Below are positions 28,610 through 28,751 of a stretch of DNA of 33,449 bases, piece after piece. The translations under genes were made by a program, and so were the position numbers. Every line of letters begins with the position of its first letter. Positions within the stretch are counted from its first letter, which is position 1. The DNA is from Bacteroidales bacterium (GTDB lineage: Bacteria; Bacteroidota; Bacteroidia; Bacteroidales; VadinHA17): NCBI GenBank assembly GCA_012517605.1, contig JAAYUS010000254.1:1-33449 (forward strand). Direction: 5' to 3'. Below the pieces are notes generated by a model. The model saw nothing but the letters and a program-made list of their open reading frames with translations, was not told where the DNA came from and ran no database searches.

Positions 28610-28751
28610 CAACTCAAAATCATTCCCATCTGCCTGCTGGCAGATGGGATTTTTGTTTTATGACTTTTTGATTGAGGCTCACCTCAGAGAGAAAAGTCAT
28701 AAAACAAAAATACCTAACGACTGAAAGGAGTAAGGGAATGATTTTGAATTG
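28610..28751. repeat. Multi-branched nested palindrome directly after tRNA-Ser
   Basis: The outer arms are 28610-28627 and 28734-28751, complementary over 18 bp with one mismatch. Inside is a hairpin (28625-28648), then perfect 20-bp inner arms at 28649-28668 and 28692-28711. The tip carries a small hairpin, TGAGG/CCTCA (28673-28677 and 28682-28686). An unpaired stretch lies on the right (28713-28733). The whole can fold as a branched cruciform or RNA. No ORF in it is credible. It starts one base after the tRNA discriminator base. Confidence 0.8.
28625..28659 (+). terminator. Rho-independent-type terminator of tRNA-Ser
   Basis: CCCATCTGCC (28625-28634) and GGCAGATGGG (28639-28648) form a perfect 10-bp stem with loop TGCT, followed by ATTTTTGTTTT. 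It begins 16 bases after the tRNA end and looks like its terminator. It is also the left branch of the larger nested palindrome. Confidence 0.75.

Follow-up and report, generated by a model that had tools for sequence, protein, structure and literature searches.

The stretch of DNA analysed here (the window: 33,449 nucleotides of contig JAAYUS010000254.1, assembly GCA_012517605.1, from a Bacteroidales bacterium) carries a 142-base palindrome at positions 28610-28751, right behind a serine transfer RNA (tRNA) gene, tRNA-Ser(GCT). Judging from its sequence and that of its relatives, the palindrome very probably belongs to a miniature, gene-free and non-autonomous mobile element of ~180 bases whose insertion is specific to the 3' ends of tRNA genes and which brings its own terminator. 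Among the sequences compared, the relatives show placement at tRNA ends, a complete tRNA, a second tRNA tail at many loci, a terminator-like segment of their own, tandem accretion and similarity of copies within a genome.

The palindrome starts at the first base 3' of the discriminator base of the tRNA, whose bounds are 28523-28610 according to ARAGORN and 28523-28609 according to Rfam. Folded as RNA, the 142 nucleotides (nt) reach -67.3 kcal/mol, against -26.6 ± 3.3 for shuffled sequences (z = -12.3); folded as DNA they reach -42.3 (z = -12.5), and in neither case was any of 200 shuffles as good. These folds bear out the nested palindrome that a first-pass annotation had described from the letters alone, including a left hairpin with a stem of 10 base pairs (bp), while correcting its dimensions elsewhere: the inner arms below the tip hairpin measure 21 bp in the RNA fold rather than 20, and the outer arms, given as 18 bp, form 14 interrupted pairs (28610-28612 and 28614-28624 with 28737-28747 and 28749-28751). 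The fold is four-way, with an outer stem closing three branches: the left hairpin, the inner arm with its tip, and a right hairpin. The right hairpin, a pseudo-T-arm, a truncated second element and the recurrence behind other tRNA genes all go beyond the earlier description. The features are as follows.

28523..28609, + strand: tRNA-Ser(GCT) (ARAGORN, Rfam)
28610..28624, + strand: outer arm, 5' strand, pairing with 28737-28751 (fold; two-sided change at 7 of 17 model pairs)
28625..28659, + strand: left hairpin (28625-28648, 10 bp) plus T-run, resembling an intrinsic terminator (fold; T-rich stretch in relatives)
28649..28711, no strand assigned: inner arms 28649-28669 and 28691-28711 (21 bp) with tip hairpin 28672-28687 (fold)
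28713..28735, no strand assigned: right hairpin, built as stem, GA, 2 bp, three-base loop, 2 bp, GA, stem (fold; helix 5 of the covariation analysis)
28737..28751, + strand: outer arm, 3' strand (fold)
28753..28787, + strand: right end, made up of a AGGGATCCC spacer and the pseudo-T-arm hairpin GGGATC-GCC-GAA-GGC-AATCC (28768-28787) (repeat comparison)
28788..28907, + strand: truncated second element in tandem, 3' half plus a second right end (28869-28907) (direct repeat, reading by eye)

The segment 28625-28659 has the hairpin and T-run of an intrinsic terminator and forms only one branch of the whole structure; by its sequence it can serve as the terminator of tRNA-Ser(GCT). To place it among its relatives, we selected 104 elements by arm pairing and a fold below -35 kcal/mol, a set that includes a few non-elements (e.g. 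L030). Three branches inside an outer stem are found in 85 of the 104, with the long arm always central and with GCTTGC (36) and GCTCGC (11) as the commonest tip loops. Of these 85 four-way elements, 67 have a T-rich stretch after the left hairpin and 77 an A-rich one before the right hairpin, so that both halves look terminator-like in sequence. The first-pass annotation had regarded the left hairpin as a tRNA terminator for which the other stems are not needed, and among the parts of the fold the left hairpin with its T-run is indeed all that a terminator requires.

At the right end, the frame GGAT-C ... A-ATCC is kept in 76 of the 78 cases among the 104 elements that have it; the loop of the pseudo-T-arm varies in length, and by eye its 5' strand follows the T-stem of the host tRNA at Lys, Met, Cys and some Pro loci. 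The bases AATCC (28783-28787) are probably the remnant of a displaced tRNA end, and in some relatives longer tRNA ends are kept at this place. The pseudo-T-arm recurs 120 bp further on, within a 39-nt direct repeat (28749-28787 and 28869-28907, 82% identity), and 28800-28867 resembles, when read by eye, the 3' half of relatives' elements. The truncated element 28788-28907 is presumably older than the first, and a comparable truncated tandem copy lies at the tRNA-Ser(TGA) locus of the same genome. Repeated pseudo-T-arm copies also occur behind other elements (L095, L102), and at L195 (1523-1654) a pseudo-T-arm hairpin (GGGATCACGACC...GGTCGTAATCCC) sits inside the tip of another element, which suggests that this module may move on its own.

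Recurrence at tRNA 3' ends

The source genome is assembled in 269 contigs, and our survey of it yielded 30 tRNA matches. Three close copies (100, 96 and 87%) each lie directly behind a different tRNA-Ser (GCT, CGA and GGA), and the fourth tRNA-Ser (TGA) is followed by a diverged copy; thus all four tRNA-Ser genes found in this genome carry the architecture. The same architecture, with quite different arms, follows tRNA-Cys and tRNA-Gly(GCC). Reading of the His, Pro, Lys and other tRNA genes among the 30 matches gave no such architecture, four tRNA genes lying too near a contig end for assessment.

For the search in relatives we built a covariance model from ten tRNA-Ser-type elements of seven genomes, with no tRNA sequence included; its E-values are rough owing to a short calibration. 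The model recovered the Ser, Cys and Gly copies of the source genome again. It matched 55 of 58 genomes of the genus (E <= 0.01, the seven model genomes included), 13 of 119 genomes of the order (E 0.001, nearly one genome per genus), 59 of 295 genomes and 38 of 156 genera of the class (E 1e-4), and only 8 of 296 genomes of a phylum sample made up mostly of very complete genomes, one of the eight (G721) lying outside the class. The rates differ between the samples and therefore depend on the sample taken. Two of the matching genomes (G234, G436) are single contigs, so assembly error cannot explain the family. A second covariance model, drawn from 40 diverse elements, held only 5 base pairs and was not used.

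Most of the matches examined lie at tRNA ends. In the genus we examined 94 of the strongest sites among the matches listed (down to 59 bits, one strand per site, four in the source genome), and 73 of them begin -3 to +6 nt from a tRNA end called by ARAGORN (Ser 59, Pro 8, His 4, Ala 1, Met 1). Six are further away, most within 14 nt and one a tandem copy, and 15 have no tRNA called; the readable ones among these 15 are preceded by masked bases, by a contig end, or by a tail that went undetected and resembles that of a tRNA or a transfer-messenger RNA (tmRNA). In the order, 17 of 19 sites fall within 6 nt of a tRNA, the other two being a tandem copy and a site behind a tmRNA-like tail. For the class, 75 of the 111 matches outside the source genome were examined, with the copy nearest the tRNA taken from each array and tandem, opposite-strand and unfetched matches left out. 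Sixty-five of the 75 sit at a tRNA 3' end (-10 to +16 nt), distributed over Ser 27, Cys 10, Arg 7, Pro 6, Met 4, Leu 4, Val 3, and Lys, Gln, Asp and His 1 each; eight have no called tRNA, some of them with tmRNA-like tails that ARAGORN does not call, and two are further off. The phylum scan added 14 previously unexamined sites, all within 10 nt of a tRNA.

In ten genomes of the genus 10 of the 25 assessable tRNA-Ser genes (30 loci fetched of 36 found) reach 12 on a 14-nt arm-pairing score, a level that is unspecific, being reached by 81 of 598 random positions, and the remaining assessable genes read as degenerate or empty.

Second tRNA tails, an empty site and tandem arrays

Insertion is seen in a second tRNA tail that many copies have beyond the right hairpin, repeating the last ~17 bases of the tRNA from the T-loop up to and including the base that follows the discriminator. 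The test was possible at 84 of 110 loci, the rest being masked, too short or without a called tRNA. A second tail sharing at least 9 nt with the tail of the locus's own tRNA was found at 31 of the 84 loci, against 9 of 1680 shuffles, and a match of at least 14 of 17 at 23 of the 84, against none of 1680. Twelve of 22 non-Ser loci reach 9 nt, and at Ala, Pro, Arg, Val and Met loci as well as a tmRNA-like locus the second tail matches the tail of its own gene and not those of other classes. In 53 of 73 cases the two tails are 150-209 nt apart; several of the other distances fit tandem copies (e.g. 340, 510 and 679 nt in L293), and L236 contributes two spurious ones. A pattern of the right end followed by a Ser tail gave 22 matches in 17 of 62 genomes, and the reversed pattern gave none. 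From the second tails in relatives we infer that the insertion target is the last ~17 bases of tRNA-Ser, starting in the T-loop.

An empty and a filled site could be aligned directly at an orthologous tRNA-Ser(GGA), where G009 and G057 differ by a single 177-nt gap right behind the tRNA, with G009 empty; a terminator-like hairpin 3' of the gap is shared, and identity is 84.9% over the 391 nt beyond. Further empty sites in relatives were recognized by reading. Arrays with tRNA ends between their units were also found, with four units at a spacing of 170 bp in G219 and three at 189 bp in G073, and L217, L209 and L222 each have an unlike element, or at least its left half, behind a tRNA end. Such arrays of unlike elements separated by tRNA ends are what serial insertion would give.

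Within a genome the copies can be much alike. Five genomes have copies at different tRNA-Ser genes that share 84-98% identity, with the nearest copy elsewhere at 80% or less; for the source genome and G002, the tRNA-Ser copies are 95-98% identical within the genome and the nearest in another genome 73-75%. A 379-base block of the window (28582-28960), running from the tRNA end through the element and the truncated second one into ~50 bases of flank, matches a second tRNA-Ser locus of the source genome, on contig C169 (L002, 1483-1860), at 95.8% identity, reflecting either gene conversion or copying of the composite. Further downstream, 28933-29096 holds a second, unrelated inverted-repeat element (DNA fold z = -6.9) whose arms, TTCATGTACTCACCCCC... 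and ...GGGGGTGAGTACGTGAA, enclose a GC-rich hairpin; the first ~28 bases of this element are found again at the C169 locus, and similar strings stand behind some other elements.

The gene next to the tRNA allows a comparison across species. A tRNA-Ser precedes the nucleoside transporter in the same orientation at 6 of 30 genus loci fetched; the five besides the present one carry unlike elements in G002, G015, G017 and G043 and an apparent remnant in G020. The tRNA before this transporter (28523-29110 in the window) is tRNA-Ser(GCT) here and in G002 and G015, and tRNA-Ser(CGA) in G017, G020 and G043; the tRNA-Ser loci may have swapped flanks through the element, or the assemblies may be chimeric.

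Proposed movement and competing explanations

As the comparison of loci shows, insertion leaves the tRNA whole and places the element directly behind it. Since it restores the tRNA end and supplies a terminator, the element should be nearly harmless. It could move in trans as a circle of ~180 bp, the joined ends forming its attachment site. Tentatively, and at somewhat less than even odds, we picture a trans-acting enzyme, most likely an integrase of the tyrosine-recombinase type, that would use the pseudo-T-arm and the outer arms as attachment site and recombine the small circle at the T-loop/acceptor segment. Because long arms lie between direct repeats, slippage should be able to remove the element precisely, as is known for transposon excision, and decay of the second tRNA end, of which AATCC alone remains here, should fix a copy.

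Several observations weigh against insertion by such an element. No second tail of at least 9 nt is present at 53 of the 84 testable loci, the present locus included, and 10 of the 22 non-Ser loci fail likewise, among them four of five His loci, the Cys locus and the Asp locus; at all of these the tail is decayed or absent. The clean empty/filled alignment is a single pair, and most of the genomes are draft assemblies. The within-genome identity could stem from gene conversion, and the closest copy is in the same genome for only 17 of the 56 elements that have a second copy there, the top between-genome identity being 94%. Among the 25 families shown of 69 (84 of 102 neighbouring open reading frames scanned) we found no integrase or transposase, the neighbours being asparaginase, nucleoside transporters and other ordinary genes. 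The circular form is conjectural, none having been seen, and a variable hairpin in place of a fixed core spacer argues against a standard tyrosine recombinase.

The main alternative to an enzyme of that type is a Y1 (HUH) transposase, moving the element as single-stranded DNA in the manner of REPINs (paired repetitive extragenic palindromic, REP, sequences) and their REP-associated tyrosine transposases (RAYTs), with the tRNA end carried as part of the element. We consider this unlikely, though it is the best of the competing explanations. As the available text describes them (PMC3116915), REPINs resemble what we see in their palindromic dyad with one hairpin per half, their tandem clusters and their compensatory changes. 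Y1 transposases occur in 12 of 13 element-positive genomes against 68 of 106 others (80 of 119 overall), a weak association for which no significance was computed, and one element-positive genome (G129) is not Y1-positive. The pairing of the right end with the T-stem also recalls the guide pairing of IS200/IS605. On the other hand, the tag GTAG, which marks one large REP superfamily, is depleted (on either strand in 12 of 104 elements, against a mean of 65 in shuffles) and absent from the three close copies of the source genome, and strict tRNA targeting and second tails of ~17 nt are not among the REPIN features in the portions of the literature at hand. The right-end hairpin GGGATC...AATCCC is absent at nine loci (L234-L242) with ten Y1 genes, which speaks against Y1 mobilization and against tRNA-end insertion alike.

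Could the palindromes instead have formed in situ, by template switching at tRNA terminators, without being mobile? The arms do differ among tRNA families, and in the source genome the tRNA-His, which lacks an element, is followed by a terminator resembling the left half of the elements at His genes elsewhere; template switching is favoured by long arms, and palindrome correction could produce compensatory changes. Against this stand the tip and right-hairpin motifs shared by different tRNAs, the near-identity of copies that one genome has at different tRNA-Ser genes, the unlike tandem elements with tRNA ends between them and the 177-nt insertion relative to an empty site, all of which make in situ formation a very improbable origin.

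The arms themselves are constrained. In our alignment of the elements 89.7% of cells pair (shuffled 76.0), with two-sided change in 77 cells, against 26.3 in shuffled and 5 to 16 in slid controls; in the right hairpin (helix 5) it affects 4 of 5 pairs, with 96.0% of cells paired. Both the copies elsewhere and the compensatory changes that the first-pass annotation had proposed to look for were thus found. A conserved structured RNA, or a processing or antitermination signal behind the tRNA selected on its RNA fold, would account for the strong fold and the covariation, and RNA also forms stable CTTG tetraloops and tandem G-A motifs. The pairs are nearly pure Watson-Crick, however: G-U makes up 136 of 5358 pairs (2.5%), compared with 10.9% (393 of 3601) across 129 tRNA genes and 14.3% (545 of 3808) when the elements are shuffled. 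Selection on an RNA structure would let G-U pairs pass, and their rarity indicates that the constraint appears to act on DNA; such pairing points to a cruciform, to single-stranded DNA hairpins or to palindrome correction. Folded on one strand, G-U exceed A-C mismatches by 66 to 20, as an RNA would have it, whereas the other strand gives 33 to 37, so that the strand preference is weak. With the terminator-like T-run behind the left hairpin, the empty sites, arms that are unlike at the same neighbour gene across species, and nothing except the tRNA passing the Rfam threshold, a co-transcribed structured RNA, one of the first-pass suggestions, finds no support here and has only a slight chance of being right. 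Insertion by a casposon-like (Cas1) system, with the second tRNA end as target-site duplication, is about as improbable: the five casposon target sites described in the accessible part of the source overlap 4-7 distal nucleotides of tRNA genes, whereas here ~17 nt from the T-loop are repeated, the palindrome arms stop short of the right border and ~180 bp leave no room for genes (no search for Cas1 in trans was made).

Relation to known systems

Miniature inverted-repeat transposable elements (MITEs) are, like the present element, short, non-autonomous inverted-repeat elements in several copies. They differ in that the repeated flank here is ~17 bp of tRNA sequence and not a few bp, and that essentially one target class is used; nor are there terminal inverted repeats at both borders, the outer arm starting the left border while tens of bp (the pseudo-T-arm) follow the right arm. 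The tyrT repeats of Escherichia coli (rtT RNA) are repeats behind a tRNA gene, each with a tRNA 3' end, at one locus and not known to have such a palindrome; the present elements occur at many tRNA types and share a conserved four-way palindrome.

With REPINs and REP-RAYT systems, as far as the available text describes them (PMC3116915, PMC3733652), the elements have in common a small non-coding palindrome with a hairpin per half, compensatory changes, tandem clusters and the lack of a transposase of their own, and differ by their position behind tRNA genes, where a second tRNA tail often follows. The order hairpin, inner arm, hairpin inside an outer stem, seen in the 85 four-way elements, is a likeness of topology alone, and in place of dispersed extragenic positions 65 of the 75 class sites are at tRNA 3' ends. 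The first-pass suggestion of a MITE-like or REP-like insertion at tRNA ends therefore holds for the insertion, given the copies at other tRNA genes, the empty/filled pair and the second tails, and fails on the REPIN and MITE marks examined. The further proposal of that annotation, that a recombinase might recognise the structure as a cruciform, would agree with the data.

Integrative elements and prophages that target tRNA genes come close in another respect. For mycobacteriophage Ms6, the part of the report available gives a 26-base attP core, with the T-loop as a possible site of strand exchange (PMC1762012). As far as such descriptions reach, these elements likewise use the tRNA 3' end, produce direct repeats from the T-loop, leave the tRNA whole, occupy several tRNA types and accrete in tandem. 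A restored tRNA with the displaced 3' end as direct repeat is what we find at 31 of 84 loci. The present elements differ in being ~180 bp long, without genes or integrase (the inserted segment of 177 nt is too short for an integrase gene), and in having their own terminator and a variable hairpin at the place of the core spacer. MITEs and tRNA-targeted islands thus each share some features with the family and fail a defining one. In Rfam at a relaxed threshold, matches apart from tRNA stayed below the gathering score, searches of phage, plasmid and viral sequences gave no match, and no description of such elements turned up among the top-ranked results of the open-access literature searched, where an earlier description is possible; the family of tRNA-end elements is apparently undescribed.

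It is conceivable, with a little less confidence than we give to the integrase, that these are attachment-site-only elements whose whole 'genome' is cruciform DNA, parasitising tRNA (and apparently tmRNA) genes across Bacteroidia, carrying a spare tail and a terminator for neutrality, and mobilized in trans by a recombinase for which a T-arm-like DNA hairpin is the recognition site. DNA elements found integrated at tRNA genes usually carry genes and extend over kilobases. A widespread insertion of ~180 bp without genes at tRNA ends would show how little DNA may suffice for site-specific integration.

The end of one contig of the source genome (C40, L038) falls at the tRNA-Cys palindrome, and other contigs also end at or near such elements (e.g. 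L073, L085, L104), which indicates that the elements may break short-read assemblies. They may accordingly explain some of the contig breaks behind tRNA genes in this group of Bacteroidota. The elements are natural presence/absence markers at tRNA loci, and they could lead to a new recombinase useful for genome engineering in Bacteroidota.
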